This document shows, in pieces, positions 1-22,700 of a stretch of DNA of 64,000 bases; position 1 is the first letter of the stretch, and every line of letters begins with the position of its first letter. The notes under the pieces are model-generated. The model was given only the letters and a program-made list of their open reading frames with translations, was not told the origin of the DNA and ran no database searches. Source of the DNA: Cheilinus undulatus (Eukaryota; Chordata; Actinopteri; Labriformes; Labridae); NCBI RefSeq assembly GCF_018320785.1, contig NC_054872.1, forward strand, positions 40,722,551 through 40,786,550. The letters are read 5' to 3'. Made by a program: the position numbers and the translations under genes.

Positions 1-2400
1 TTGTCATCAAATGTGATCTGATCTGCATCCAAGTCACAAGTATAGACAAACACAATGTGCTTAACATAATACCACACAAACAAAAACAATACAGTGGTGT
101 GAAAAAGTATTTTCCTCCTTTCTGATTCCTGAGTTTTTAGCATATTCATCACACTTAAATGTTTCGGATCATCAAACCAATTTTTATATTTCACAAAGAC
201 AACCCAAGTAAATAGAAAAAGCAGTGTTTGAATGATTATCTAATTTTTTAAGGGGGGAAAAAATCCAAACCTTTCTGGCCCTGTGTGAAAAAGTAATTGC
301 CCCCTGAACCTAATGACTTGTTGTGCCACTTGGCAGCAATAACTGTAATCAAGCGTTTGCAGTAACAGACGATGAGTGTTTCTCATCACTGTGGAGGAAT
401 TTTGACCCACTCTTCTTCATAGAATTGCTTTAACTCAGCCATATTGGAGGGTATTCCAGCATGAACTGCCGTTTAAGGTCACACCACAGCATCTCAGTTC
501 GATTTAAGTCCGGACCCTGACTGGGCCACTCCAAAACCTTCATTTAGTTTTTCTTGAGCCATTGAGAGGTGGACTTGCAGGTGTATTTCAGGTCATTGTC
601 CTGCTGCATAACCCAAGAGCGCTTGAGCTTGAGGGCACATACTGATGACCGGATGATCGCCTTCAGGATTTTCTGATAGACAGCAGAATTCATTGTTCCA
701 TCAATCACAGCAAGTGGTCCAGGTCCTGAAGCAGCAAAGCAGCCCCAGCAACACCTTCCAAAAAGTTCAACTTTTGTCTCGTCAGTCCACAGAAAATTTC
801 TCCAAAAGTCTTGGGGATCATCAAGATGTTTCTTGGAAAATGTGAGATGAGCCTTTGTACTCTTTTAGGTCAGCAGCAGTTTTGGCCTCCGAACTCTCCC
901 ATGGGTGCCATTTTTGCCCAGTGTCTCTGGTTTGACCTCATTTGGCAGCAACAACCTCAACCAAACGTTTCCAGTAGCTACTGAATGGACCTGCACAACA
1001 TTCAGGAGGAATGTTGAAGCATTCTTCCTTACAGAAGTGCTTCAGCTCACCCAGATTATTAGGCTGTCTGGTGTGAACGGCTTTTGAGGTCATTCTACAC
1101 CATCTCTATTGGAGTCAGGTCTGGGCTCTGACTGGGCCACTCCAAAAGGTGGATTTTCTTTTTTTTGAAGCCATGTTATTAATTACTTCCATGTTTGAGG
1201 TTGTTGTCCTGCTGCATCATACAACTTCTTCTGAGCTTCAGCTGGTGGAGAGCCACCCTGACATTATGCTGTAGGACAGTGGTTCTCAACTGGTTGAGCC
1301 TTGGGACTCACCATCAACTTCCCAATGAAAAACTCCAACCCAAATTTCTGATCATGTTTGACCAATCAGATTTATCTAAGGAAAATATCCCAGTTTGAAC
1401 CTCAAAAATGCAAAACATGCCACCAATCAAAGATGAAAGGCAAAAAAGCTTGTTGAATACCACAGCAGTAGGATACCATTATAAACTTGTGAGTTGATTT
1501 TCCCTTCGATGATAGCAAGCAGTCCAGGCCCTGAGGCAGTAAAGCAGCCCCAAATCCTGATGCTCGCTTCACTGTACTTCATTGAGGGGATGATGTTCTC
1601 ATGTTGGTCTGCGTTTTGTGCCATAAGAACTGCTGCGTGTTCTCCCCCAAAATTTCAACCTAAGTTTCATCAGTCCATAAACATTTTCCCACTAGCGCTG
1701 TGGAGTGTCAAGGTGCTCCTGGCAAACTTCAGGTTTGCAGTGATGTTTTTGGAAAGTAGCGGCTTTCTCCGTGGACACCATGCCTGTTCAATCTTTTGCA
1801 TATGGTAGACTCCTGAAAACACTTGTTCCAATGATTCTGTTAAGCTTTCAGCTGTTATTCTAGGGATCTTTTTTTTTAACCTTTCAGCATTCTGCATTGT
1901 GCTCTTCTTGGTAGAGTAGTACTGTATCATCTGCATTTGTGGACAGTTTGTCTAACTGTGGGCTGGTGAATACATAAAGTCTTATGGGGGACTTTGCAAC
2001 TCCTTCCAGTCTTACCCAATTTAACAATTCTTGATCGAAGGTCTTCTGAGACCTCTTTCTTGCGAGGCATGGTTCACATCAGCAGATGCTTCTTGTGAAG
2101 AGTTACCTCAAAAAGTTTGAGTGTTTTTATGAGTCACAATAGCTCTACACCTGGCTCATATCTCATTTAATTGATTGGACTTCAGATGTGCTAACTCCTG
2201 ACTCCAATTAGCTCTTATTGGAGCATTAGCCTAAGTGTTCACTTATTTTTTCCAGTAGCACTGTGAGTGTTTAATGGATATGTTCAAAAAGGACTTTAAG
2301 TATTGTAATTGTTTGTGTGGTATTAGGTTGAGCACATTGTATTTTTCTATACTTGTGACTTGGATGCACATGAAGTCATCAGCAGATAAGACTTTTTATA
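1..2400 (-). mobile_element. Tc1/mariner-like element relic in pycard copy A intron 3, longer version
   Basis: Two ends match as inverted repeats of about 75 bp. Around 20-95 the sequence reads ATCCAAGTCACAAGTATAG and continues; its reverse complement lies at about 2285-2370. Between them, minus-strand reading gives Tc1 transposase fragments, for example WGCFTASGPGLLAIIEGKIN near 1500-1600. A second Tc1-like relic (about 95-900, ending in a GTGAAAAAGTAATTGCC-type motif) is nested or joined to it. A hAT-like terminal motif CAGTGGTTCTCAAC sits at 1277. All reading frames are broken. Copy B carries the same element with about 1.06 kb missing inside. Confidence 0.75.
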
Positions 2401-3767
2401 GTGCAAGTGCCTCTTTACCGGCCATGGTATCTCCACCAGATGCTCCAGCTGATGGTCTTGCAGCTGAACAAGATTGAGAAGTATTGCTTGAAAATTATTG
2501 TAAAGATCAGTGTTTCAAATTAAACAAGGAAACAAGAAAATAACTCACCATCACTGGAACCAAGCTCTGAGCGCAGTGCAGCTGTTTCTTTCACTGCAAA
2601 AAAAAGGACAGACACAGTATTAGTTTCTGAATAAAACTAGTTACAAGGTTTGTTTGTCCTCTTCTGGTGGACTCTGCAGGACAATCGAGATCAATTTAAC
2701 TATTTTTAGTTGTTTGTAGTATTTAAAATACTTTGAACATGAATTGATGAATGTTTGTTCATTTGTCAATATTTATAAATTCACTGAATCATATGCTAAA
2801 TAAGCTATACATGTTGAAGTGATTCCCAATTAATCTTTTAATGACTTATTTAGGCTTCAAGTTTGATATACATATGGACACAATGCAGCCTTCTGTCTGT
2901 ACTCTTTGCTGATTTTTCCAAATTTCTTCATTTCTTCGGTGAACTTTCTGAATAAAGATTTTCAAAGTTGATTGAACATGTATGATGTTTGCATGTCTGG
3001 GCACGGAGACACAAATCTACAAATGAACTGCTGGATGTAGCTCAGACAGCAGCAAAGATAACATGGGTAATGATTGAATAGTTTAAAAAATACAGATCTA
3101 TTTACATCCTTAAAGAAAGCATGAAAGAGCACCAGAGGAGCAATTTTGGTACCTATAGTTCTACCCAAACTACACCCAGAATCAATCCTGAGAATGTCCA
3201 CTAAAAAAATGAATACTGTATAGCCTAATATTTTTCACAAAGTAGGTGATTTACATTTCCAACATCATGCTACCATAAAGGTTTATGTCAACATGGGATT
3301 TAGGATAGCGGGGTATTTTATTAGATGTTAAAATGTGCTCCCAACATCTCTTAAACCTGGGGTTGGGAGAAACGCCTAATAAAAAGTAATTTGGATTAAG
3401 ATTTGTTTTACAAGCCTATATGGCCTACTGCTTCATATCCTGAAGCCGAAATCATGCCCTCACATGTTTGCATCAAAAAGTCTGGTTTAAACCTTTACTC
3501 ACTAACATACTTACAGAGTTCCTCGGCATCGTCCCCGCACCTTGCCTCCTTCAACAGATCCACAGTCACCTGTAGAGCTTTAACCTCGGTAAAAGTAGAA
3601 ACAAGGAGGTCAGTGATCTCTAGGTAGGTTTTTCCCTCCACTTGCCTGCGCCGGACTCTCGGCTCTACCCTGCGGTCCAGCAGCCTGGTGCAGAACTTTT
3701 TGAAGTTTTCCTTTGACAGATTCTCCAGCGCGTCTGCTATAGCAGATTTAATGGTTTTGGGAGCCAT
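1..3767 (-). CDS. pycard: pycard (ASC) copy A, PYD-CARD inflammasome adaptor; 3' part beyond left edge
   Basis: ASC-type adaptor. The PYD recruits sensors and polymerises; the CARD recruits caspase-1-type proteases in the cytoplasm. Three exons are in the window: 3767-3515 (PYD), 2593-2549 and 2463-2419 (45 nt each, linker). All have GT-AG junctions in phase 1, and every junction matches complete copy B at 5582-9951. The start is the ATG opening MAPKTIKSAIADAL. The CARD exon should lie about 250 bases left of position 1, because position 1 matches about 6091 in copy B and copy B's CARD exon ends at 5841. No stop or frameshift is seen in the visible exons. Differences from copy B include RRVEPR for RKEEPR and LKEARCGDD for LMEARCGND. 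Intron 3 holds a Tc1-like relic. Identity is firm; whether copy A still has an intact CARD cannot be seen. Confidence 0.85.
3515..3767 (-). CDS. pycard: pycard copy A exon 1: Pyrin domain
   Basis: 253 nt encode 84 residues plus one base. The PYD pattern is clear: an amphipathic first helix (IKSAIADALENL), then FKKFCTRLLDRR, EPRVRRRQVEGK, LEITDLLVSTFTE and a last helix ending DAEEL. The donor is CT|GTAAGTATG (phase 1). The basic EPRVRRRQVEGK stretch and the acidic first helix fit the charged faces PYDs use to assemble. Nearly identical to the exon at 9699-9951. Confidence 0.9.
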
Positions 3768-5581
3768 TTCTCACCAGAAGATCCCCCAGACCCTCCGCGT
3801 TTCTACGTACACCCCACCGATTTCCGGATAAGTTCCCTGATAAAGACACCAGGATGACACAGGGCTCACCTTTTTTCTCCACTCTCACACCCAGCACGCA
3901 GTAAGCAGTAGTAGGGCGGAAATGCTGCCTTCGCGTGAATTCGTCTATTAGAAAACGCAGCAGTAGCTGTGTGTTTAAAAGTGAAATGGAATTCAATTTG
4001 TGTTCCTTTTAAAAAAACATCCATGCCAAAATGAAAGACTGTGTTATGGGTCATCGTTTTTATGACTTGATGATTGTTCCTACATTTCTTTCTTTCTTTT
4101 TTTACATAAATCTGAGAATTAATTTCATTTTAGCTATAGATTTTTCCTCCATTTTCCAAGCACTTAAATGTAACACCATCCATTTTCACAGAGAACCTAC
4201 TATGACACATTCCTAAATTGCTTGTGCATACTTGTTTTTTTTTTTTTTTTTTTTTTTTTTGCAGTTTGTTTATCGGGTAAGTGCGGGATGGGGGAGTACT
4301 AGGTGGATCAATGTATTTACACTGAAGCCTTAAATTTTCACCTCCAGCTCCCTGATACCCCCCTCCATTCCTTGCCAGAATACCCCGCCCTCGGCCATTT
4401 TATTGACAGGTGAGCTTAGCATAAGCAATCAGTACACAGATAACAGAAAACAAATGTATAAGAATAATGACATTTGTTGCATGAACACGAATTTTTACCC
4501 TATGAAAAGAAAAAAACATCTAAAATATTTATCATTTAAGTTATGTATTAGATTAACATGAGTCTTTTATATGCTGGTCATACAAAGAAAAACAAGATTT
4601 CTGCAGTTTAAGAAAATGTGAACAGAGAGATCAGTTGTCAGCTGCCATTTGTGTGTGATGTAGTCAGGGTAGTGGAAGAAAGCTGTGAGTGCCCTGGGAT
4701 TCAAAAGTCCAGAGTCCGGGTATTTAAAAAAAAACAACCTCAAGACACGTCTTTTTAATTTGTCTTTTGATAGTGAATACATTTACGGTCTTGTGTGTTA
4801 ATCATTGTTTTTAACCACTGTCTTATTTTTGTTTTTATTTTAAAGACAATAAGATTTTTTTTGTCTTTACTTTCATTTCTATTTTACTTTTGTATTTTTC
4901 TGGAGTATTGAGAATGCAAAGAAGGTGTTCAGAGTGCATAAAACAGAATCAACATGGACAGATCATTAATAAGCTGAAGATAACATTTGACAAAAGTTGG
5001 AGGTGAAAACAAAAACCATCATGAACTCTGATTCACACTGTAAATTAAGATACTCTCAAAAAATTATCCACCCAAAATTCAGAGTCACACCCAGGAATCA
5101 GAACATTTTATTTATGTTTAACAGGAAGTTCATTGTACATAGGACATTTTAAAATACCCTCCAAATGTAAATAGATTCTACTTGGTAAAAAAAAAATATC
5201 CAAGAAATTAGGATCTCAAAGCATTTTTAGACAAATTCTAATAATTCACTTTTAATTTACATTTAAAAATGGTTAAAATATGGAAGCATTACATTTCATG
5301 CAAATTGATAAAAAAGATAGGAGGGGATAATTAATCCACATTTACATGATAAATATTTGCATATTCTGACTGCAACAGGATTCAATCTTTTTAAAGCGAT
5401 GTAATTAAAAGACCCTCATTGAAAGAGGCACAGTTCTGCTGAAACATTCATGTTATCAGTGGTGCAGTGGTGTGTGCAGAAGTGAATATACTCTTCATTT
5501 CTCCACAGGAAAATGGTGCTAAAATCAGTATTTCCTATTTATTTAGGTGGGCTGTATATCCTAAAAATTTATCCAAAAGAG
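3768..5581. other. Spacer between pycard copies: copy A promoter flank, 3'UTR-like relic, copy B 3' region
   Basis: From 3768 to about 4460 the sequence matches the 5' flank of copy B (9952 to about 10930), so the promoter was duplicated with the gene. From 4543 to about 4900 it matches 16106-16440, the presumed 3'UTR of the PYD-FGKY gene. A poly-T run lies at 4231-4260. From about 4900 to 5580 I see only AT-rich sequence. TTTATT (minus-strand AATAAA) at 5107-5112 and 5538-5543 are candidate poly(A) signals for pycard copy B. No further gene is supported. Confidence 0.6.
4543..4900 (+). pseudogene. Relic resembling the 3'UTR of the PYD-FGKY gene
   Basis: This segment aligns by eye with 16106-16440, 440-770 bases after the stop of the PYD-FGKY gene and before its likely poly(A) signal. 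Shared stretches include TTTTATATGCTGGTC and GGGTAGTGGAAGAAAGCTGT. Just before it (4468-4542) the sequence matches 11251-11365, upstream of the same gene. So the 4.7 kb that holds the whole PYD-FGKY coding region in the right-hand unit is absent here. No coding exon remains. Confidence 0.6.
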
Positions 5582-5841
5582 TTATTTGTTCTTGAGTTCC
5601 TCAATGAGATACTTCTCATTTTCCTCAAGAAGTTTCAAGAAGACATCTTTGCAGTTAGGGCCAGCTTTCAAGCAACCACAGAAGAGCTCCCTCATCTTCA
5701 TCTGAGTGGTGGGCAGAACTCGGATGTTATCATAACTCTCCTGTTGGATGACACCTTTGAAAAGGAGCCCATCCAGAATGGGTGCAATGTTGCTCACTCT
5801 TTGGATTAGAGCCATTCTGTGTTTATCCACAAAGTGCTTGT
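5582..5841 (-). CDS. pycard: pycard copy B exon 4: CARD domain and stop
   Basis: Reads DKHFVDKHRMALIQRVSN, then APILDGLLFKGVIQQE, then YDNIRVLPTTQMKMREL, and ends in LLEENEKYLIEELKNK and TAA. The pattern FVDKHR-x-LIQRV-x-ILD-x-L with a final helix pair is the ASC CARD. The acceptor CTCTCAG is at 5842-5844. The domain is full length (about 85 residues). Confidence 0.92.
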
Positions 5842-8814
5842 CTGAGAGAAAGGAGAAAAATGATCAAAAACGTTTCTGATTTGAGGTCATGAAAATTCAA
5901 CTTGATACTTTATTAGACAATAACTATTTATTTAAAAATCTAAGTACCATACATGAACTCAGTGTAAATAAAGCTAGTGTTCAGTCTGTTCCCAACACTG
6001 TACTATAGTGGCAAGAAAAAGTATGGGAAACCTTTGAAATGATCTAGTTTTCTACATTCATGGACATCATCTGTAGTTTTCTACATTAATTTGTCATCAA
6101 ATGTGATCTGATATGCATCTAAGTCACAAGTATAGACAAACACAATGTGCTTAACATAATACCACACAAACAAAAACAATACAGTGGTGTGAAAAAGTAT
6201 TTTCCTCCTTTCTGATTCCTGAGTTTTTAGCATATTCATCACACTTAAATGTTTCAGATCATCAAACCAATTTTTATATTTCACAAAGACAACCCAAGTA
6301 AATAGAAAAAGCAGTGTTTGAATGATTATCTAATTTTTTAAGGGGGGAAAAATCCAAACCTTTCTGGCCCTGTGTGAAAAAGTAATTGCCCCCTGAACCT
6401 AATGACTTGTTGTGCCACTTGGCAGCAATAATTGTAATCAAGCGTTTGCAGTAACAGACGATGAGTGTTTCTCATCACTGTGGAGGAATTTTGACCCACT
6501 CTTCTTCATAGAATTGCTTTAACTCAGCCATATTGGAGGGTATTCCAGCATGAACTGCCGTTTAAGGTCACAACACAGCATCTCAGTTCGATTTAAGTCT
6601 GGACCCTGACTGGGCCACTCCAAAACCTTCATTTAGTTTTTCTTGAGGCATTGAGAGGTGGACTTGCAGGTGTATTTCAGGTCATTGTCCTGCTGCATAA
6701 CCCAAGAGCGCTTGAGCTTGAGGGCACATACTGATGACCGGATGATCGCTTTCAGGATTTTCTGATAGACAGCAGAATTCATTGTTCCATCAATCACAGC
6801 AAGTGGTCCAGGTCCTGAAGCAGCAAAGCGGCCCCAGCAACACCTTCCAAAAAGTTCAACTTTTGTCTCGTCAGTCCACAGAAAATTTCTCCAAAAGTCT
6901 TGGGGATCATCAAGATGTTTCTTGGAAAATGTGAGATGAGCCTTTGTACTCTTTTAGGTCAGCAGTGGTTTTGGCCTCCGAACTCTCCCATGGGTGCCAT
7001 TTTTGCCCAGTGTCTCTGGTTTGACCTCATTTGGCAGCAACAACCTCAACCAAACGTTTCCAGTAGCTACTGAACGGACCTGCACAACATTCAGGAGGAA
7101 TGTTGAAGCATTCTTCCTTACAGAAGTGCTTCAGCTCACCCAGATTATTAGGCTGTCTGGTGTGAACGGCTTTTGAGGTCATTCTACACCATCTCTATTG
7201 GAGTCAGGTCTGGGCTCTGACTGGGCCACTCCAAAAGGTGGATTTTCTTTTTTAGAAGCCATGTTATTAATTACTTCCATGTTTGAGGTTGTTGTCCTGC
7301 TGCATCATACAACTTCTTCTGAGCTTCAGCTGGTGGAGAGCCACCCTGAGATTATGCTGTAGGATATGAATTTTTCTATACTTGTGACTTGGATGCACAT
7401 GAAGTCATCAGCAGATAAGACTTTTTATAGTGCATGTGTCTCTTTACCTGCCATGGTATCTCCACCAGATGCTCCAGCTGATGGTCTTGCAGCTGAACAA
7501 GATTGAGAAGTATTGCTTTAAAATCAATGTAAAGATCAGTGTTTCAAATTAAACAAGGAAACAAGAAAATAACTCACCATCACTGGAACCAAGCTCTGAG
7601 CGCAGTGCAGCTGTTTCTTTCACTGCAAAAAAAAGACAGACACAGTACTAGTTTCTGAATAAAACTAGTTACAAGGTTTGTTTGTCCTCTTCTGGTGGAC
7701 TCTGCAGGACAATCGAGATCAATTTAACAATTTTTAGTTGTTTGTAGTATTTAAAATACTTTGAACATGAATTGATGAATGTTTGTTCATTTGTCAGTAT
7801 TTATAAATTCACTGAATCATATGCAAAATAAGCTATACATGTTGTAGTCATTTCCAAATTGGCTAATCTTCTAATGGTTTATTTAGACTATAAGTTTGAT
7901 ATACACATGGACAAAATGCAGCCTTCTGTGTGTACTCGTTGTGTAGAAATTAAATAAACATATTCAGGGTTTCACTAAAGTCCAGAGTTTTCAATGCTTT
8001 TTTGTGTGTTTAATTCCATGTAGTGAGGTCATACAATATTCTATTTCCATTCTAAATTCTTGTATCTTTGGTAACTTTTGAGTCCATTTACACTTATGGA
8101 TGTAATATTTATCAGACAATATACGTCAATTAAAAATATAAAGCTTTTGACAGTTTCTTTTTCCAACTGTCATAATAAAATTGTCATAATAGTCTCTCCT
8201 CCTCTACCTCCTCCAGTCTCTCCTCCTCTACCTCCTCCTGTATCTCCTCCTCTACCTCCTCCATCTCCTCCAGCCTCTCTTGCTCTACCTCCTCCTGTAT
8301 CTCCTCCTCTACCTCCTCCATCTCCTCCAGCCTCTCTTGCTCTACCTCCTCCTCTACCTCCTCCATCTCCTCCAGCCTCTCTTGCTCTACCTCCTCCTGT
8401 ATCTCCTCCTCTACCTCCTCCATCTCCTCCAGCCTCTCTTGCTCTACCTCCTCCTGTATCTTCTTCTGGATTTCTATTATCTGTCACCTGACAAGAATAT
8501 ATTGATGGATGACATATGAACAGTGGGACAATTTGGGATGCAACAATCATTGATTTTGATGGTATAGTCTGAAGAAAAAACTCAGTTTCTCAATTATTAT
8601 GTCTAATTTATTCATAAACAATATGGATGTATAAAATCACATTTATAATCCAAGGTTTTATTTTATTTTTTTCCATAAACTTTCATTGTTAGTGTTTTAA
8701 ACAGTTGCTGCCTTTCAAAACACAAATAATACATGAAAAAAAAAATCAAAAAGTGTATCTCTTTGGCTTTAAATATATGCCTTTTTTAAAATCTCTGTGT
8801 TGTTGAGGCTCTAC

Positions 8815-8845
<31 letters not shown>

Positions 8846-9951
8846 ATATTTTATTTGTCAGCTCTTTCAATAAAACTCAAAGACACTTTACAAGAATAAA
8901 ACAATTACATAATATGAATATATAAATTGCAATACATAAGTTTATTATAAAGTTAAATCATAGAATATTAAAAAAAGCATACAAGTAATACTATTACTAC
9001 TATTATTACTACTACTAATAATAATAATAATAATAATAGGAGGGGAGAGAGTCTGAGTTTCTGGTGGTTGAGGGGAAGGAGTTTGTGGTGTAATGTGTTC
9101 CTCTGAGTAACTTACATTTTGACTTCTAAAGAAATCTCTTATATCCAGTTTTCTTTGTTTCGACATCTTGCCACCTGGCTGCGCCTAATTACCAAACACA
9201 CATACGCACGCACGCACGCACACACCCAGACACACATTCAATGTTAATGTATACGAAACCTCTGATATTAAAATCCGTCTAGCTGACGTGACCCAGGCAG
9301 AACAAATGCCCAACATGTTAACAACTTACAGTATCAGATGAACGTTGACTCATGGCCAACTAGCTACACACCGGTGTGCTCATGGACCATAGTCCAGGCG
9401 CTGTTTACAACCAGATGGAGTGACAGCGGGGACGGCCAATCACACGTTAGTAAGAAACGGCAGAGCCAATCGATGAGCTTGTGGGCCAGCGGGCGGTCTA
9501 AAGGGAAACGGGCTTCAGCTTGAGCAGCCGTTTTCCGCTTGGTCCTAGTGCTCAACCTGTCTCCATTTAATATAGCGTAAATTGTTTTTGGATGGTAAAA
9601 ACTGCAGGGGACCAAAACTGCCTTTTTAAAAAATGCAGGGGACATGTCCCCCCCGCCCCCCCCCGCCAAATTACGTTCTAGCTCACTAACATACTTACAG
9701 AGTTCCTCGGCATCGTTCCCGCACCTTGCCTCCATCAACAGATCCACAGTCACCTGTAGAGCTTTAACCTCGGTAAAGGTAGAAACCAGGAGGTCAGTGA
9801 TCTCTAGGTAGGTTTTTCCCTCCACTTGCCTGCGCCGGACTCTCGGCTCTTCCTTGCGGTCCAGCAGCCTGGTGCAGAACTTTTTGAAGTTTTCCTCTGA
9901 CAGATCCTCCAGCGCGTCTGCTATAGCAGATTTAATGGTTTTGGGAGCCAT
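5582..9951 (-). CDS. pycard: pycard (ASC) copy B, complete PYD-CARD inflammasome adaptor
   Basis: Four exons, 200 residues, close to my memory of zebrafish Asc (about 200). Exon 1 at 9951-9699 (residues 1-84, PYD); exon 2 at 7622-7578 (45 nt, KETAALRSELGSSD); exon 3 at 7492-7448 (45 nt, ARPSAGASGGDTMA); exon 4 at 5841-5582 (CARD and TAA stop). All junctions are GT-AG in phase 1. The PYD and CARD polymerise separately to build the ASC speck, joining NLR-type sensors to inflammatory caspases; this is family knowledge. The start is the ATG of MAPKTIKSAIADAL, the same as in copy A. Intron 1 contains a minisatellite and a hAT-like relic; intron 3 contains a Tc1-like relic. Both linker exons are symmetric, so skipping either keeps the frame. 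Confidence 0.92.
6005..7440 (-). mobile_element. Tc1-like element relic in pycard copy B intron 3, internally deleted
   Basis: Near-identical to 1-1280 of the window, then jumps at about 7365 directly to the outer right end (CTATACTTGTGACTTGGATG). About 1.06 kb present in copy A (about 1282-2340) is missing. The left end extends to about 6005 (GTGGCAAGAAAAAGTATG), typical of a common fish Tc1-like inverted repeat. Not coding. Confidence 0.75.
8193..8465. repeat. 57-bp pyrimidine-rich minisatellite in pycard copy B intron 1
   Basis: About four copies of a CTC-rich unit of 57 bases built from TCTCCTCCTCTACCTCC, then ATCTCCTCCAGCCTCTC, then TTGCTCTACCTCCTCCTGTA. One copy is shortened by about 12 bases, and a shorter CCTCCAGTCTCTCCTCCTCT variant leads in. 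All frames are open because the unit is a multiple of three without stops; one minus frame gives an EEVEQERLEEMEEVEEEIQ repeat. Copy A lacks the array. I read it as intronic. Confidence 0.85.
8817..8845. repeat. (AAT)n microsatellite
   Basis: About nine uninterrupted AAT units, followed by AAC and a stretch ending CAGCTCTTTCAATAAAACTC. Lies in pycard copy B intron 1. Confidence 0.9.
8975..9670 (-). mobile_element. hAT-like (ZMYM1/TTF-type) transposon 5' end relic
   Basis: On the minus strand a G-rich start (GGGGGGGACATGTCCCCTG, about 9665-9640) is followed by about 480 bases of leader and then an ATG opening MSKQRKLDIRDFFRSQNVSY at 9166. That N-terminus (short basic stretch plus IRDFF) is typical of fish hAT-like proteins of the ZMYM1/TTF-type group. 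The frame then runs into microsatellite. It sits about 25 bases inside the intron from the pycard copy B exon 1 donor and is absent at the same place in copy A (3514). Confidence 0.6.
8984..9038. repeat. (ACT/ATT)n and (AAT)n microsatellite
   Basis: Alternating ACTATTACT units and then about eight AAT units, next to the hAT-like relic. Confidence 0.85.
9699..9951 (-). CDS. pycard: pycard copy B exon 1: Pyrin domain
   Basis: Residues 1-84 plus one base: MAPKTIKSAIADALEDL, ENFKKFCTRLLDRKEEPR, VEGKTYLEITDLLVSTFTE, then a helix ending NDAEEL. The donor is at 9698-9693 (GTAAGT). It is almost identical to the exon at 3515-3767, including synonymous positions, so the duplication looks fairly recent or gene-converted. 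A minus-strand open frame runs on past the donor into the intron, but that extension is transposon sequence and not part of the protein. Confidence 0.92.
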
Positions 9952-10930
9952 TTCTCACCAGAAGATCCCCCAGACCCTCCACGTTTCTACGTACACCCCA
10001 CCGATTTCCGGATAAGTTCACAGATGAAGCCACCAGGAAGATGCAGAGTTCATCTTTTTCTTCTCCTCTTTAACCACTGCCCATAGGAAGGAGGAAATGC
10101 TGACTTCGAGTGCTGTCGAGAATTCGTCTTTTAGAAAACGTAGGCAGTAGCAGGGTGTTTAAAAGTGAAATCGAATTAAATTTGTGTTCCTTTTGAAAAA
10201 ATCCATGCCAAGACTGTGTTGGCATGGATTTTGGTTGGCTTTATGGCTCATCGTTTATATGACTTGATGATTGTTCTTACATTTCTTTCTTTCTTTCTTT
10301 TTTTTTTTTTTTTTTTTTACATAAATCTGATAATTAATTTCATTTTATAGATTTTTTTTCTTCATTTTCCAAGCACTTCCCTGTAACACCATCCATTTTC
10401 ACACAGAACCTACTATGACGCATTCCTAAATTGTTTGTGCACACTTGTCTATTAGTTCTTTAAGCAATTTATTTATCAGGTAAATGAGGGATGGGGGAGT
10501 ACGTGGGACAATTTATTTACACTTAAGCTTTAAATTTTCACCTCTAGCTCCCTGATATTCCCCATCCCCCTTACTTTGCCTACTATGGGACAATTCCTGT
10601 TGTGGGACAACTGTGAGCAAGGAAACCAGAAACATTTCTTAACAATTTTCTAGAAAAAAGATCAGGTTTGCATTTGTTAATAGGGACTGTCCAGGACATT
10701 AAGCTCACCCAGAAAAATTAGGATATGCAAAGGACTTTTGTGCAAGTGTAAATGGGAATACATATGAATAAATACATATTTATGGTAACACCGCATTCTT
10801 TGTTTCTGGAAATACGAACATCAGTCCTCTGATCAGGATGTCCCCGGATGACCTCGGCCATTTTATTGACAGGTTAGCTTAGCAAAAGCAATCAGTACAC
10901 AGATAACAGAAAACAAAAGTATAAGAATAA

Positions 10931-11260
10931 TGACATTTGTGAGAGGGACCCAACTGCAGTCAAGATGGCAGACATAGGTGTCGCTATACATCCAATCCAT
11001 GCCGGAAGTCCCAAGCGGAAGTTTGTTGTTCGTGTTGGACTTAGCTGCCAGTGTTTGTCAGTCTTTTTCACGCCTAAGCCTAACCCTTGGTGCTGGATCT
11101 CAAATATATCACCTTCCCCACTGCCTTACCCTGAACCTAACCCCTCAGGCTTTAATGCCTAAGCCTTACCTTAGACGTACGGACTTCCTGTTGGGACTTC
11201 CGGTATGGATTGGATGTATGTTGGCCATCTTGTCTGCATCAAGGTACTTTTGACATTTGT
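10931..11260. mobile_element. 310-bp MITE with 10-bp target-site duplication
   Basis: TGACATTTGT occurs at 10931-10940 and 11251-11260, flanking 310 bases. The paralogous site in the copy A flank (4468-4477) has a single TGACATTTGT and no insert, so the empty site is in the same window. The insert has imperfect inverted ends: CAAGATGGCAGACATAG near the left, and CAAGATGGCCAACATAC on the opposite strand near the right. Each is followed by a CATCCAATCCAT-CGGAAGTCCCAA-like stretch. A 9-10 bp duplication would suit a Mutator-like element; the superfamily is a guess. Confidence 0.85.
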
Positions 11261-11639
11261 AGCATGTAAAGCAAAATATAATTTAAATGTAAATCTTTCA
11301 CAAACAAACACAGTTTTTTACCTTATGAAAAGAAAAATACATTTAGAATATTTACCATTAAAGTTATTTTTTAATTTGAGAAATGTGCCATTATGTTACT
11401 TTTATCTAATCACTCTAGATTTTTTTTTTTTTTTTTTTTTTTTTGCATATTCAACATACCGAGTCATTATTTTATTAATTTATTACTCCTAGTGTTTTTA
11501 CTTTGAAACTTTTTTGTTTTATTTCCATTTTTATAAATGTTCTTATTTTATGATTCCCTTTTCCCTCTGATTTTTCTTTCATGAATTAATAACCTTTTTA
11601 TTTCTCTGTTTCTTTTTGCATATTGTAATCCTGTTGACT

Positions 11640-11810
11640 TTTATTTTGATATTAGTTTGGCGGGTACTCGTGTGACGTCACGGAAAGGCTCGCACCGATT
11701 GGTCAGTGATTGGCGTGTTTTTCACTGGCGCCGTATACAACTGTGCTGGTGCAGAGTCGATATACGTCAGCCGTCCTACTCACTACGAGCTTGCTTGGAC
11801 CGTTTAAAAA
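11640..11810 (+). promoter_or_regulatory. Promoter region of the PYD-FGKY gene (CRE and CCAAT motifs)
   Basis: A full palindromic CRE/ATF site TGACGTCA lies at 11673-11680, and two inverted CCAAT boxes (ATTGG) lie at 11698-11702 and 11709-11713. No TATA box is obvious within 100 bases of the ATG, and CpG content is locally high. This fits a TATA-less promoter about 100-130 bases before the start codon. Motif reading only. Confidence 0.5.
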
Positions 11811-14800
11811 ATGTCCACGACCATCAAAAGAGCTATAGCGGAGGATTTGGAAAATCTGAGTGATGATGATTTCAAGAAGTTTGTTTTCCTGCTTAGAGAC
11901 CGCAGAGAGGAACCGCGTGTCAGCTCCAGAGCTGTGAAGGGGAAAAACCCGTTGGAGATAGCAGACACAGTGGTCTCCCATTTCACAGAGCCCGTAGCCG
12001 GTCTGGTGGCTGTGAGCATACTTAGGCAGATGAACTTCAACCAGGAGGCTGAAACGCTGGGTGAGATAACGAATACGATATATGATGTTTCGGTTTAATG
12101 CGTTACCATGTTATCTGATGTCTTTCAACCGAATACGTCTGTTGATGTAATAACATGTCGAGTCCTCACGAATGCCCATTTGTGTAGCTTTTGTGTTGAC
12201 ATGAAAATATTAACAAATATAATGTAATTAAAAAAAAAACTAACGTGGGGAAATTCCAACTTTACAGCAGCAAGAGTGTATAAAAGCAGCAAGAGAGGAA
12301 AAAAAGAGCTTTCAATTAGTACAAATACTACAAAACAGGAAATATGAAGTCTTCCAAAAAAACAAAACAAAATAAAACAAACAAACAAACAAAAAAAAAA
12401 CAATATTTACAGCTGTTATGTACATGTTGGATATATTACAGATTGGATAGTGGAGATATTTGTACGGACACCTATATACACACATATATATATATACACA
12501 ATTATATACAATCATGTGTACAGATTATACATATAAATATGATTTATTGCACAGATTACTTTGATTGCAAATACAAGTTAGAATTTCCATCACTGCTGTA
12601 ATTATCAAATTGCTATAATTGTTAGAGCTTTTTATAGAGTTCACTGACTTCTTAAGACAGTATTATAAATTTGAATGCTGGAATACATTTGCCCCTTAAC
12701 GGGGCATATGCAGTAGCAGAGTACTTCACTGTGACTGACGCACAGCTGAAGAAAATGTTTGGCCATGCACAGACTCAGTGAGCACTACTTCACTCTCGAG
12801 AGAGGATGCCACAGACAAAGAGGAAAGACTGTGCACCCACTGCAGCCAACAGGTGGAAACACTCTGCACTCTCTAACCACCTGTCCTTTGTACAATGGCA
12901 ATCAGAGCCAAGTTCTATCCACTTTTCATCAGCATAAAAAATGACCAAACCTCCATATCTGCTGGGTGAAGTGCAACAGTGTGCAGATGCTGAGGCACAT
13001 TATGTATCTACTGTGGCCAAAGAGGAACCTCAATCATCATATCAATGATAAAACTTTTTCTCTGCTATCATTATTATAAATGTGTACATTGCTTTGGCAA
13101 TGTTTTCCATGCAACTTAAGCCAAATGAACTGATATTATATTACATATGAAAACCTGTTTAGAAACTGTATCATCTTCTTTGTTCAACTTTAAGAAAGGA
13201 TCTGATGTCTACACTCATTTTTTTAACCTCCTGTCACAGAATAAACATTTAGACTACAACTAGGTAGCATTATTTGACTTCACATTTTATGATAAGAAAT
13301 ATTACTTTAAGCGCATGCATTGATATGTTTTCAAACTTAATTGGTTAATTTAAAGTTTGAAGGCCAGTGCTGCTGTTTTTGTTTTATTTTTCATTAAAAA
13401 ATAAGATGAGATCTATATAAGCCTTTGACCATTCCTGTTTCTTTCTCCACAGAACTGAAGATCAAAGCCTGTGTGGATGTAAGTTGAACTCATGATATCA
13501 AATTCAAAGTTTCGCTCAAAAAATTACATTGGTTCAATCCAGAGTCCAATTCTGAAAAGGTTGGGATATTGTTGTGAAATATGAATAAAAAATAAAGTAT
13601 AATGATTTGCAAATCATTTTCAGTATACATTCAATTGAATACAGCACAAAGGAACATACTTAATGTTCAGACTAAGAAAATATTGTTTTTTAATTCCATA
13701 AAAATACAGAATTTGATGCCTGCAACATGTTCCAAAAAAATGGGACAGAGCAGGTTTACTACGGTGTTGCATCATTTTTTTCTGATAACTCTATAAGCAC
13801 CTAGGGACTGAAGACACTAATTGTTGAAGTACTGAAAGTTTAATTCTCTCCAGGGTTTTAAAGGATTTAGTAGAAAAGTAGAAAAAATATTGATGTATGA
13901 TGATTTGATTGCAGTTTTTCTGTACTTATATGTTTAACTTTTGGAGTATTTGACCAACAATCTTCCACAAAAGGGAGAATCTGATATCACAACTCCTTTC
14001 AGGAGTGCTCCTTCTACACCTAATAATGGTTGTATCACTTGTTACCAATTAACCTGCTTACCTGCTGAATGTTCCAGGTGATTTTTGAACATTAGACGAC
14101 TCTCTGCCTTTTCTTGCCCCTGTCCCATTTTTTGGGGAGCATGTTGCAGGCATCAAATTCAGAATTTACTGACATTTATTGCCAAAGTAACAATATAGTT
14201 CATCAGTTTGAACGTTGATTATCTTTTCTTTGTGATGTGTTTAATTGAGCATAGGTTGAGAAGAATTTACAAATTGCTGTATTCTGTTTAAACACATTTT
14301 ACAAAGTGTCCCAGACAAAATGTTTTCAGTCCTGAGGTTTATAATTTATACTCTTATTGTTGTGTTTTGCTTTGTCTTCATTTGTAGAAAGACGACTCCA
14401 TCCTTCGTAAAACATTGACAGGGGAGTCGATGCCAAAGTCGACACGTGAGGTTCTGAAACCTGCACTGGGCTGTCGTTCCTCACAAGTTGCTCAATGTGA
14501 AGGTCCTCAGCAGAAGCCAGAAGATGTCAATGCTGAAGAGGAGGATTGCATTCTCTCTGAGGATGGAGACGCCTGTAACGACAGGCTTCCTCTGGGCAAA
14601 TGCACAATCCAGTTTGGCAAGTACAAAAATCGAACCTTTGAATGGCTGCGGGAGAATAAGCCAAGCTATCTGGGGTACCTGGTTGCTAGCGACCAAAAGG
14701 AGAACAACTTTCCTCCACAACAGGATCGGCTGAGGGCCAACAAGGTATGCAAAAGAAAAATGAGAAGTCATTTGTACACAGAAGCCCCTAAAAGGCTTTA

Positions 14801-15667
14801 TTTAAGAAATCTACTTAGAGTACAAGGTTTTATATTTAAAACAAGAATATTTCATCCACTCTCAGACATCCTTCCACTCAGTCAGGATACAAATTGGTGC
14901 AACATTTTTCAGGAAAATAAGGAGTGCAACCAACTACTTTACATAATGTCTCTCTCTCATACAAATACACATTTTTTTCTGTATGAGCTTAGCCATTTAT
15001 AAACTGTTTTTAAAAATTTTGGTTGATGACATAATACAAAGAACAATTAAATCTCCCCTTAGGACACCCTTTATTTTCGCTACATTGCTCAATGAAATTT
15101 GTTTTATTTTTATTAGCTCTCCCTTTATTGTATGGTGGAGAAGTCATTTTTTGTGTTATAAATTGTAAACTTCTCAAACTGCCCCTTTAAGAAAAAAAAA
15201 CAGAAATAATTTCAGTGACGCTTCTGCTCTATTTGAAGGATTCCTTGGCCAGATATGCAATGGCGTACCCAGAGGTGAGGGAAGAAATCAGATTCAACTC
15301 TGAGTATGACAAAGCCAAAGTGAGATCCCTCCTCCCAGGCCAGGAAGGAGCTGCTCTTGTTGGATTTGGTCCTTATCGATGGGAGACACTAAAAGTTCTG
15401 TATGAGTCACCGGACCCAGATAAAATCAGGTACGAAAGCATGAGCTGGGTGTGGATCTTGGTGTAAGAAGACTGGAGGGTATTTAAGCTCAAACTTTGCT
15501 TTTTTGTTCACAGGTTTGTCAACAACATTTGGATTAAAAAGTCCACCTGCATCAAAGGATCCAAGATGGACATCCTTGTCAGATATATCCTAAAGCGAGA
15601 GAAAGAGTGGGCTAAGGCTGTGCAAACCCGAAGAACCGCGATCTCTTCTTACAAGAATAAATATTAA
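11811..15667 (+). CDS. PYD-FGKY protein: Pyrin domain joined to an unfamiliar repeated FGxY region
   Basis: Five exons, 325 residues, all GT-AG and in frame: 11811-12060, 13453-13478, 14388-14744, 15239-15429, 15514-15667 (TAA). Residues 1-83 are a PYD (MSTTIKRAIAEDLENL, FKKFVFLLRDRREEPR, GKNPLEIADTVVSHFTE), clearly related to the neighbouring pycard PYDs and ending in the same phase 1. Residues 84-155 are an acidic, low-complexity linker. Around 162-195 comes LPLGKCTIQFGKYKNRTFEW, and around 253-283 VGFGPYRWETLKVLYES followed by KIRFVNNIWIKKST. The C-terminus is basic (LVRYILKREKEW...). I do not recognise the C-terminal family. FGKYK resembles the DUF3820-type motif, but that is only a resemblance. 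A role in inflammasome-type signalling is inferred from the PYD and its neighbours. The first ATG of the exon is taken as start. Confidence 0.8.
13540..14180. mobile_element. Degenerate MITE in intron 2 of the PYD-FGKY gene
   Basis: Begins near AATTCTGAAAAGGTTGGGAT and TGATTTGCAAATCATTTTC, a start I know from a very common fish element. GATGCCTGCAACATGTTCC with AAATGGGACAG at 13716-13747 recurs inverted at about 14120-14160 (CTGTCCCATTTTTTGGGG and CATGTTGCAGGCATC). The inner half between the arms is shortened. Superfamily not assigned. Confidence 0.7.
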
Positions 15668-16665
15668 AACTACAGAGGACATGCCAACAAGTACGGGAAC
15701 CTGAAGGTTCAAGGGCAGCAATCAAGAAGAGGCAGGCAAAGACAGCAGGGATCATGGAGCAGGAAATATTTACATGTCTAAACAAAGAAAAATCAACTCT
15801 TGAAAAAAGAATTTCAATCAAAAGTTAAAATTTTGAAATGGAAATAATGCATGAGTAATGGTAGACTGTACAGTAAAAGTTACAGAATTATGAACTCTTC
15901 TGTGTGGACTTAATTCTGCACAAGTAATCTGATTGGACAGGAGATACTCCATGAGCTCTGTTGTAGGGAGTTGACACTATCACTCTGCCTCAGGTGTACA
16001 CTACAGTGTACCACAAAACAAGATAAGAGAGTCTGCAAAGTCTGTTCAAAGTCGAAATCTCCCTTATCATGAAACAGAACCTCTGCACTGCATGTTAAGA
16101 CACATGTATTAGATTAACATAAGTCTTTTATATGCTGGTCGTACAAAGAAAAACAAGATTTCTGCAGTTTAAGAAAATGTGAACAGATCAGTTGTTAGCT
16201 GCCATTCGTGTGTGATGCAGTCTGGGTAGTGGAAGAAAGCTGTAAGTGCCCTGGGATTCAAAAGTCCAGAGTCTGGGTATTTTCTAAAAACAAACCAAAG
16301 ATGCATCTTTATAATTTGTCTTTTAAGAGTGGGTACTTTTACTGTCTTGTGTTTTTTTATTATCGTTTTTATTTAAAAGACAGTAAGAATTTTTCTTTAT
16401 TTTTGTTTCTATAATACTTTTATTTTTTTTTCACTTTTTAAAAATCTTATTTTGATGTTTGATCAATCAAGGACCCTGTCTGAGGATTTGACCCCTTTTA
16501 TAACAATTTTGCTTTAAAAGCTTTATTTATATGAATTTAATGTGAAATATACATTTTAAATGTATAAGTCCTCTTTTGATAAATGTGTGTGCTTTTAAAT
16601 TTTCTCATGCTTTTCTCCATCTCTGTGGAGTGTTTTGTATGGCTTGTGTTCAAAATGTGCTGTGT

Positions 16666-16671
16666 AAATAA
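16666..16671 (+). terminator. Candidate poly(A) signal of the PYD-FGKY gene
   Basis: AATAAA within GTGTAAATAAACACATC, about 1.0 kb after the stop at 15667 and preceded by T/GT-rich sequence. Another AATAAA lies inside the last codons and cannot serve. The resulting 3'UTR would include 16106-16440, the segment also found at 4543-4900. Confidence 0.5.
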
Positions 16672-17324
16672 ACACATCCTGCCTATCCCTTTAAAACTGT
16701 GGATTTAATTTACATTATTAAAGACATTGCAACAAAGCTAATGTCTGCAATAGATAATGAAAAAATAGAAAATATTGATTTTTTTCTTTGAACAAGAAGC
16801 TTATTATCCTTTGTGACAAGCTACTGTAGCGGCGCTCTCCAATATGGTGATTGTACTGCCTGAATGAAAGCACACTTTCAAACATCTGGTGTTTTCCTAA
16901 AGAACATTTTGGGTCAGGATAACTTTTAGGGGAACTAAACGTCTAAAATACTTGATTGCAAAAGCTTTAACAGCAATTTTCTTCAATGATACCATTGATT
17001 ATATGCTGCAATGTTTCCTGTTAGGGGCTACCCACAGATGAGGACAAAATTATAAGCTCCCTTTAAAAATTCTGCTGTTGTACAGAGCAATGCATTTTAA
17101 CACAGCATTCTCAAACACCCTAGTTTTATTTTGGATGCTAACATTATTTTACTTTGCATACAGAAACAAAAATATTGTACAAAAACTGCCAGGGTCTAAA
17201 TTATTAGCCTCCTTGAGCCTTAGCACATGTTCAATGATGGGCTTTAACTTTGTAATGCTGAAAGCTTGTAAACTCAGGTTAAACTGAGACTAATCTTAAC
17301 ATTTACACACTGTAAAAACTTCAG

Positions 17325-19442: not shown

Positions 19443-19727
19443 TTACTGTGACGCCCATGTTTCACTGCTGTGCTCTGACGATGAAGCCGCCTGTACCCCG
19501 GGGCACTGCCAGGACTCAGTGTTTGTGGGCAAAACATTTAGACTAGTCAGGACTTCCTGTGCTGTCTTTCCCAGCATGCCCTGCATGTCGCAGACAAAGC
19601 GGTAGACGTAGCGTTTGCCCGCTGTCTTGTGGATGATGTTTTTGTGGTAGTAGTAACGGAGGCCACGGCTCAGCTTCTCGTAGTTCATCTTGGGTTTGTT
19701 CTTGCATTGTCCCCAGCGCTTTGCCAC
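19443..19727 (-). CDS. etv2: etv2 exon 8: ETS recognition helix and C-terminus
   Basis: Begins [20 protein letters not shown], continues [19 protein letters not shown] and [20 protein letters not shown], and ends in a serine-rich tail before TAA. Histidine replaces the usual aspartate of YYYDKNI. C-terminal to the domain, [14 protein letters not shown] resembles the short helical tail of ETS1-type proteins. Confidence 0.93.
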
Positions 19728-22700
19728 CTGTGTGATGAACAGATGAAGAGTTACATTTCTGGTCTTTATTCAAGTCAACAATAAAAAAGGCTTTATTACA
19801 ATGAGAATCAAGCATTTAACAGGGTTCAGAAAAAGTAACTCTCAGTCATAGTATTGTGTGCACAGAATTTAGTGTTGTGTGCTGAAGCAGTCAAAAGCAA
19901 AGCTAGATTTAAGTACTCAACACACTGGTGATTTAGTCCAGTAATCCCTAAACTAGATGTCGAGCCCTGAGTGGTCACAGAAACAGTAAAGACACCAACT
20001 TAAATGCTACTAAAAGCTGTCTTTGCTGTACAGCTTATCACCTGGTTACAGGTGGACCCTTGTACCCAACAACAGGCTGTAATAAGGCTGAGTGCAAAGG
20101 TGCTCTCTGAAGGCAGTAGACCTTGCTTTTTTACTTTCCTCTTAATGCACACATTAGTCGCAGCATTTTCCAATGATTTTTCTTATTCTGGGGCAAAGTT
20201 AGAAAAATCTGCTGCTATCAGAGGCTTTAAATTATGAATTAAATATCATAGCTGTAAGATAAAAGCTTGTTTAACAGCCCAAGTTGAATCATGAACTTAG
20301 TCCAGATGATGCACTGTAATAGATGCCGACAGTGTTTGCTCTGCCTCTTTAATTCAGACATATTTTTAAAAGCCAGGATACACAGCTAATGAGATGATTC
20401 GTGGTCTCTTTAACTATTGCCTTTTCTGGAGACCAAATAAATATGTTTTTGTTTTTTTTTGTTTTTTTTTAAATATGTTGAACCATGTGTGAAGTTAATG
20501 AAGGGAAATTAAATTGTCATGCTGACATCTTGCAAAAGGAATCTCAAGTAGAAACAGATTTTGTTGTCTTTTTGTAAGGTTTTTCCTTAATTTTGATACT
20601 GTCAGTTTAAATCTAAACAGCTCCTGTTATATGCAAATCATGTGTTTATTTTTAACAGCTACAGTGATTAAACAAAAAGTAATAAAGCCACTCTAAGAAG
20701 CACTGAAGGGCAAATATGAAGCCAAATTAAACTCACAAGTAGTATCCCTGTAATGTGTTGAGGGATTGTCTGCATAAAAAATTTACCCTTTAACAAGAGA
20801 CACATTTCAAGTTAATGAGACTACCTTCAAATCTGACTTGAATATAGAGCAGCAATTCTCAACAGGTGGGTCAGAGCTCTTTTCAGTGGATTGCAAATGT
20901 GAAAATTGTGGCAAGGTCAATGAAGTACGGAAGCCCTAAGCAGACATTAATTCGTATATTTAATGTTACTCTGTTTTGCTGTAAAAACAAGTTCATTTTG
21001 ACTGTTTCCTCTTGATCTTGACTTCTTTATCATCCTTCTTACTCTGGTGTTCCCATGATAATGTGTTCATTTCTCCATAGTATGAGAAAACCAACCCATA
21101 TGTACACATTTTTACAAAAAAAGTCACAGGCTTTCTGTAATGATGTGCTTTTTACATCTTTTTTCAGTTACAGTCTACTCCATCTACAAGTTATACACAG
21201 AAAATCTGTCATTTGATTTAATACTTTTACGACCTTTTAAAAGACCCTCTTCATACATTCTAAGACTGATTGTGTCTTCAGTTTATAACCAGGTACCTTC
21301 ACAACACAGCTGCATATATGTTTTTTTATTTGCTTATAGTAAGATGAAAGCATGACATTAAAGGAAAGAAAAGTCCAGGTGTTTTTCTTATGGTAGCAGG
21401 CTAATTAAGCTTTCTTAGAGCATTTTGAGATTTGAGAAAAAAGAACTGAATACCATAAAGTAATTGAATGAAAGATCTTATTTTTTACTGAAGCAATGTA
21501 AAAGTAGTTATACCAGAATACCACAAGCACCTGTTTAAAAGCAGTTAAAAATAACAAATTGAATAGTACACACTAAGGTTGTAGAGAAGAAAAATACAAG
21601 GTATAATTGCTCATCTTAGGATGTTTGGAGTTTTTATTCTGTTTTTGTATTTTTTTATTTCTATAAGTCTTGGTGCAAGGTGAATTTTCAAGTGTATAAA
21701 AAAGATATAATGGAAGAAAAAGTAGCCTACAACCTCTTTCAATGAATCAACTAAAATAAGAATAAAAACTTTTTGGTCTATCATTTACATCTTTTTACAG
21801 TAACACTTTTTAAAAACATTAAATTTTATTTAACATTCAAGTGTGTCATCAGCTTCAATAATTTTTAAGACCCCATGAACTTCCTGCATCTAAGATACAA
21901 ACTGAAACATTTTCATTGATTAAATTTGTGAGTTTTAGAAAATTTCAAGGATTTGGGTCGCGTTTTTATCAATAAAGAGGTGGTGGTGTATCCTGACAGT
22001 AAGCCAGGTGTAAACCACTGATCATGAGTTGAAATGACTCTATTCTGCAAACAGGAAGTAGGCGATAGGGACTGTACACCAAGACAGGAAGTGTTCTCAC
22101 CTCTGTGGGGTCAGACATCTTAAACTCCCAGCCGTCTCCTGTCCAGGAGATGAAGGTGCGGCAGGATGAGTCCAGAAGTAACTCCAGTAAAAACTGCCAC
22201 AGCTGGATTGGACCAGAACCTGAATGAACACAAAATGAGCAAACAATTAAAAAATATGAAGAATTTAAGCTAAAGAAGAGACACTATCACAAGCGTTTTA
22301 AATACACCATAAGATCTGTGTTTCAAGAATCATTCAGACTCTTATTATGTAAAAGAATCCATGCAGCTGGACAAAAAACTGCATTGCAAGTAAAATTTTA
22401 TTTTCTAGTATTAGTGACAGAATCATAAAACATAAAGCCTATTATATACTGCTACTATTAAGACTTGTGTGCATTTTAATGCTCTGCTCTTCTTTAATGT
22501 ATGTAAAAACTTTAATACTCTTGATTTTCTGATTTCAGTGTTAAAGAGCAGCTAAAATAAAGAGTGAGTCCTGACCTGGATAAGCTGACATTCCAGTAAT
22601 CTGGCCCTCCCTCTCTGGCCTCTGCGGGTGTGCATTTTTGCGTTTGACCACACGAGGGCAGTACTGCTCTGTGGACTGAGGACTGAGGCTTGAGGAGGCT

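Follow-up and report, generated by a model that had tools for sequence, protein, structure and literature searches.

The window analysed here, 64 000 nucleotides of the Cheilinus undulatus genome (C8:40722551-40786550), holds a plus-strand gene in which an exon for a pycard-type pyrin domain (PYD) appears to be joined to exons for an unrelated C-terminal module; we refer to it as the PYD-module gene. Comparison with paralogous copies elsewhere in the genome gives good support to exon shuffling, with exons 3-5 corresponding to the N-terminal exons of a DUF6729-type gene family. We tentatively propose, at somewhat less than an even chance, that this chimeric fish gene encodes a PYD protein that engages ASC and has a nucleic-acid-binding tail, in a layout like that of AIM2. 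The partner of a PYD decides what an inflammasome can sense, and the joining of a pycard-type PYD to a module from another gene family would represent a novel route to an inflammasome protein. The gene may thus encode a fish inflammasome sensor, or a regulator, of a new type.

Gene structure and the pyrin domain

The five-exon frame described in an earlier note on this DNA holds as written: the joined exons give 978 nt encoding 325 amino acids plus a stop codon, all four introns are GT-AG, and the coordinates, phases and motif positions (FGKYK from residue 168, FGPYR from residue 254) are right. The features of the gene are as follows.

Exon 1, 11811..12060, plus strand: pyrin domain; residues 1-83 and the first base of codon 84; ends in phase 1 (G/GTGAG)
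Exon 2, 13453..13478, plus strand: micro-exon of 26 nt; encodes ELKIKACVD together with the final base of exon 1
Exon 3, 14388..14744, plus strand: N-terminal part of the module; begins where the paralogs have their start codon
Repeat 1 core FGKYKNRTFEWLRENKPSYLGYLV, 14613..14684, plus strand: residues 168-191; ExoX-tail-like
Exon 4, 15239..15429, plus strand: DSLARYA stretch and repeat 2 core; ends AG/, phase 2
Repeat 2 core FGPYRWETLKVLYES, 15365..15409, plus strand: residues 254-268; the repeat runs on into exon 5
Exon 5, 15514..15667, plus strand: completes repeat 2 and contains the basic tail (last 40 residues, net charge +8) and stop codon

No internal stop or frameshift occurs across the 325 codons, the GC content is 0.48 in the coding sequence versus 0.33 in the introns, and a stop codon lies in frame two codons (6 nt) 5' of the ATG. 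Exon 2 has a CAG acceptor and a GTAAGT donor and restores the frame; it lacks homology support and is the least secure part of the five-exon model.

Residues 11-81 match PF02758 with an E value of 9e-14 and 51.8 bits, against a Pfam gathering score of 22.9. With E values up to 10 allowed, Pfam finds nothing beyond the PYD in the whole 325-residue protein: there is no CARD, HIN, NACHT, DUF6729 (PF20499) or exonuclease domain match. The best sequence match of the exon 1 PYD in the PDB is an MBP-ASC fusion (E 1.8e-8). The 1.17-Gb genome (46 contigs) contains at least 31 PYD matches, of which 19 lie at C8:40.63-40.74 Mb. When the genome was searched with the PYD as protein (14 candidates scored, E up to 0.001), only the PYD itself and four others were returned, all of the latter in the adjacent pycard array and 46-53% identical to it. 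The nearest pycard stands head to head with the PYD-module gene:

Adjacent pycard, 5585..9954, minus strand: PYD exon 9700-9939 (PF02758, 4.5e-14) and CARD exon 5585-5863 (PF00619, 2.7e-19)

At its putative donor (T/GTAAGT) the ASC PYD exon is in phase 1, as is exon 1. These results confirm what had been claimed earlier, that exon 1 encodes a PYD related to that of the neighbouring pycard and has the same phase-1 end.

A multi-copy module probably joined by exon shuffling

Residues 84-325 match 21 places in the genome, namely three of the gene's own exons and 18 paralogs (E from 4.8e-16 to 0.026) located on C14 (nine), C2 (seven), C24 (one) and C33 (one). A reverse search with the C2 51.5-Mb copy returned 19 places, the identical 18 plus the PYD-module gene. 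In 15 of the 18 paralogs a DUF6729 match follows on the same strand within 4 kb downstream; those with no such match in reach are the C24 copy, the C33 copy, which lies at the end of its contig, and one of the C2 copies. DUF6729 has 46 matches in the genome, none of them near C8:40.7 Mb. The combination of PYD and module is present as a single copy at the search sensitivity used. We therefore rejected the C-terminal half as an orphan region, given its 18 other genomic copies; its earlier description as unfamiliar and new is not borne out, since 15 of these copies lie upstream of a DUF6729 match and the repeats resemble the ExoX tail (see below).

The eight paralog rows of our alignment (A1) are 22-29% identical to the PYD-module protein. 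Most C14 copies and the C24 copy read as one open frame across the positions of introns 3 and 4, which supports the joins between exons 3, 4 and 5. Some other paralogs have broken frames, for example L026 and L027 (the latter on C14). Searches with tblastn found no relative in viral contigs or prokaryote genomes, a PDB search with the module family profile gave no matches, and the hits to Pfam DUF4159 (E 0.22) and NCBIfam rrmJ (E 0.045) were taken as chance matches. No paper on DUF6729 was found in the open-licence literature.

The start of exon 3 (DDSILRK) aligns in A1 over the N-terminus of the paralogs (M..FRK), with LRK placed on FRK. All nine paralog starts examined have a start codon 1-5 nt after a candidate acceptor, with GTG for ATG in L023; by sequence the nine represent about four kinds (C14, C24, C2 51.5 Mb and C2 6.3 Mb). 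At the place of intron 4, the three C2 6.3-Mb copies examined all carry a phase-2 donor AG/GTGAGT (AG/GTACG in the PYD-module gene), and in L019 the acceptor matching intron 4 is also in phase 2. Intron 3 is missing from all eight paralog rows. Because the place of the acceptor and the place and phase of intron 4 match, the PYD exons appear to have been spliced onto an upstream acceptor of the DUF6729 genes. This supports the proposal that exon shuffling brought a PYD exon together with a second half of other origin, the pycard PYDs being the nearest relatives of the first part and an intron being shared in the second.

These boundaries also bear on an alternative in which two separate genes or transcripts are present, one coding for a PYD only, with exon 1 as its sole exon or accompanied by unseen ones, and the other a lone copy of the module. 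The shortness of exon 2, unmatched by any homologue, would agree with this, as would the C24 module copy, which exists with no DUF6729 match in reach. Exon 3, however, opens at an acceptor and has no ATG where the paralogs start, its first methionine being codon 15, past the LRK/FRK motif; moreover, the donor of exon 1 is in phase 1, and with exon 2 the frame is restored. We regard two genes as improbable.

Several observations on the DUF6729 genes may be recorded here. At C14:3.99-4.15 Mb, C2:6.26-6.36 Mb and C2:51.5 Mb (L030-L049) large genes with module, DUF6729 and, by eye, a region resembling a DDE transposase form tandem clusters. The top DUF6729 scores are equal on C8:7.69 Mb and C13:9.84 Mb, and these may be recent dispersed copies. 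In L033 a stretch at 8318-9919 (LDSTKK..VDRDCC..LDVWHFMRR), where DUF6729 is the only Pfam match, looks by eye like the core of a DDE transposase, so that the DUF6729 genes were considered as candidate transposons.

The repeats, the ExoX tail and putative function

The duplicated FG-x-Y segments noted earlier are correctly placed at residues 168 and 254. Within the PYD-module protein alone the pair of 15-mers is at chance, as shuffling the C-terminal part 100 times reached the best score on 24 occasions, and we rejected its significance by itself; support was gained only with the paralogs. When paralog rows are included, hhalign aligns repeat 1 to repeat 2 with P 4.1e-4 and a probability of only 34.7%, and two of 400 column shuffles reach the score; the profiles of the two repeats also fall on one and the same segment of E. 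coli ExoX.

The profile of the repeat 1 family (n = 6 rows) aligns to residues 173-203 of E. coli ExoX with P 2.7e-6 and a probability of 88.5%, the rows of this profile and of that for repeat 2 (n = 4, one of them hand-joined and with one wrong residue) having been picked after the motif was seen. The whole of A1 aligns to ExoX 173-202 (P 2.7e-5, probability 74.5%). ExoX ranks first with both repeat profiles among the 12 complete proteins of the E. coli ExoX locus (L051; two proteins cut at the ends were left out), and its neighbour YobB does not match. None of 200 shuffles of ExoX reaches the score of either profile; repeat 1 clears the shuffles by a wide margin (38.4, highest shuffle 18.3), repeat 2 by a thin one (20.3, highest shuffle 18.7). 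Six of nine A1 members match PF20600 (ExoX-like_C) at E up to 1, the best with E 0.00097 and 18.9 bits, and the NCBIfam ExoX model matches residues 164-193 weakly (E 0.11). Taken as family profiles, both segments would correspond to the ExoX tail, repeat 1 clearly and repeat 2 weakly.

A scheme for the origin and action of the protein can be outlined. A pycard-related PYD exon, in the orientation opposite to pycard, lies upstream of exons for a DUF6729-type N-terminal module and is probably spliced via the micro-exon onto the acceptor that precedes the start codon in DUF6729 genes; the DUF6729 part is absent and the predicted protein ends in a short basic tail. The PYD would nucleate or join ASC PYD filaments, and the C-terminal pair of ExoX-tail-like repeats, together with the basic tail, would bind a ligand, most likely nucleic acid. 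Clustering on the ligand would then gather the PYDs and recruit ASC. Binding of nucleic acid is suggested because of the likeness to the tail of ExoX, a DNA exonuclease, the basic charge (isoelectric point 9.8 for residues 156-325, compared with 5.3 for the PYD) and the setting in which the module otherwise occurs, the DUF6729 genes. A sensor layout, with a PYD and a putative nucleic-acid-binding tail, fits at least as well as the effector or decoy considered earlier.

If the module does bind nucleic acid, the protein would be a direct candidate for DNA or RNA sensing via ASC in fish, where AIM2 has been reported missing; a review describes both the AIM2 and the Pyrin genes as not present in teleosts (PMC9978379). 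The further step, that we are dealing with a teleost nucleic-acid inflammasome sensor convergent on AIM2, in which a pycard-type PYD and a DNA/RNA-binding module common to transposase-like DUF6729 genes fill the PYHIN gap, seems to us doubtful.

A number of results weigh against a nucleic-acid-binding sensor. The repeat 2 family profile aligns to E. coli ExoX 174-201 with P 1.1e-3 and a probability of 20.3%, and a second run with other settings gave P 7.8e-3 and 5.1% for repeat 2 (P 2.9e-6 for repeat 1). Both the best paralog (18.9 bits) and the cut-out repeat 1 of the PYD-module protein (12.6 bits) score below the PF20600 cut-off of 26.5 bits; this model does not match the whole PYD-module protein and gave no matches in a genome-wide search. 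A crystallised ExoX fragment comprising residues 1-167, and hence without the tail, is described as still active (PMC3753628), which weakens the argument from the ExoX tail to nucleic-acid binding. The linker, residues 84-155, is acidic with a net charge of -6, and AlphaFold2 gave exon 3 alone a pLDDT of 35, so that the model was not used. Finally, a pattern scan of 11301-11811 found no interferon-stimulated response element, gamma-activated site or kB match, and so no interferon-type element.

The main rival is a decoy or regulator similar to the PYD-only proteins (POPs), whose PYD would cap or compete with ASC filaments while the module only stabilizes or localizes it. Such a role is somewhat unlikely taken by itself, and nearly as likely as the nucleic-acid-binding sensor. 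The PYD is nearest to those of pycard itself, and neither a CARD nor a NACHT is there to pass a signal onward; PYD proteins with ASC-binding or inflammasome-inhibiting activity have been reported, among them POP2 (PMC5465353) and myxoma M013 (PMC2762494). A simple cap would, however, have no need of the C-terminal 242 residues, which keep an open frame and most of the family motifs.

The pycard array and flanking sequence

The pycard units are arranged in tandem on the minus strand over window positions 1-11373 and the adjoining L050 (C8:40712500-40722499). Array PYDs are located at 3516-3755 and 9700-9939 of the window and at 2387-2626 and 7463-7702 of L050; array CARDs are at window 5585-5863 and L050 9546-9803, and a further CARD, at L050 5768-5978, has a broken frame. 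On C8, CARD matches occur near the array at four positions (40684130, 40709293, 40722048 and 40728138). The following features flank or enclose the PYD-module gene.

Block missing from neighbouring pycard units, 11374..16103, no strand: 4.73 kb, with the whole coding region of the PYD-module gene inside
Putative promoter elements, 11673..11713, plus strand: cAMP response element (CRE) TGACGTCA at 11673, inverted CCAAT boxes (ATTGG) at 11698 and 11709; from a pattern scan
Putative 3' untranslated region (UTR), 15668..16690, plus strand: polyadenylation-type signals at 16667 and 16717; end position 16690 estimated

In the same scan the CRE and the two inverted CCAAT boxes start 102-138 nt 5' of the ATG.

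Three neighbouring pycard units hold parts of the 3' flank 16104-16715 and no coding region, the matches being at window 4543-4899, L050 8484-8735 and L050 4527-4878. Within the window two matches abut, 4484-4550 to 11307-11373 and 4543-4899 to 16104-16429; L050 has the identical joint at 8484. Two of the three short units thus share a joint where the block is missing, with an overlap of about 2 nt and no longer duplication. A clean mobile-element insertion was rejected, as the block edges have about 2 nt in common and lack a longer target-site duplication. Since the likely 3' UTR lies in the shared flank, we tentatively prefer a loss of the gene body, in an ancestor of the short units, to an insertion at the PYD-module locus.

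The array is relevant to the idea that the gene is a non-functional chimera on its way to decay. The gene is a single copy at the search sensitivity used, and the nearby units with 3' flank parts and no body imply that the body can be lost or was never present. Yet its 325 codons are intact while paralogs such as L026 and L027 are broken, and the 46-53% identity of its PYD to the pycard PYDs speaks against a very recent event. Decay appears to us quite improbable, and we retain the ASC-engaging sensor as our tentative preference.

Other elements of the window are as follows. Intron 2 contains an inverted repeat of about 150 bp (72% identity, 13605-13748 and 14120-14274) that resembles a small palindromic element. 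Positions 8194-8461 consist of 57-bp units in 4.9 copies, one minus-strand frame of which is Glu-rich with EEVEQERLEEM repeats. Two repeats of 1.27 kb (1-1276 and 6091-7364) are 98.7% alike, with a diverged copy at 53380-54100; they carry a putative Tc1-like frame, and the frame at 6636-6953 has no Pfam match at 0.01. ETS-family exons occur on both strands: an ETS domain lies in two pieces on the minus strand (19446-19769 and 21972-22283), and on the plus strand 54885-55211 is a SAM/Pointed exon and 63507-63998 an almost complete ETS domain.

Comparison with known systems

Expanded sets of ASC genes have been reported in fish, with 20 copies in the round goby (PMC6988351) and three in tandem in medaka, each of which has both a PYD and a CARD according to a review (PMC8122782). 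The PYD-module gene was considered as one of the three medaka ASCs and rejected, as all three are described there with both domains. A fish PYD joined to this module is not described in titles or abstract starts among the matches listed from the open-licence literature; a predicted protein of this layout, so far unnamed, may well exist in databases.

The PYD-module protein resembles ASC/PYCARD in its PYD exon, which has an equal phase-1 end and its nearest relatives in the adjacent copies, but it has no CARD match and its second half is an unrelated module. From the NLR/NLRP proteins it differs in having no NACHT match. With the POPs it shares the form of a small PYD protein that lacks CARD and NACHT; unlike them it has a second, family-shared region of 242 residues that matches 18 other genomic places. 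The DUF6729 genes have the N-terminal module, the place of the acceptor and, in the C2 copies, the place and phase of intron 4 in common with it, but go on into DUF6729 and, by eye only, a transposase-like region, whereas the PYD-module gene carries a PYD ahead of the module and extends no further than the module. The pattern FG-x-Y-(K/R)-G ... E ... P-x-Y-L of the ExoX tail (PF20600) occurs once in each repeat, although the protein falls below the PF20600 cut-off, has no exonuclease domain match and carries two copies in place of one. Finally, the AIM2-like receptors (PYHIN, that is PYD plus HIN) are similar in having an N-terminal PYD, a linker and a basic C-terminal part; the PYD-module protein differs in that it has no HIN match and its DNA binding is only putative.

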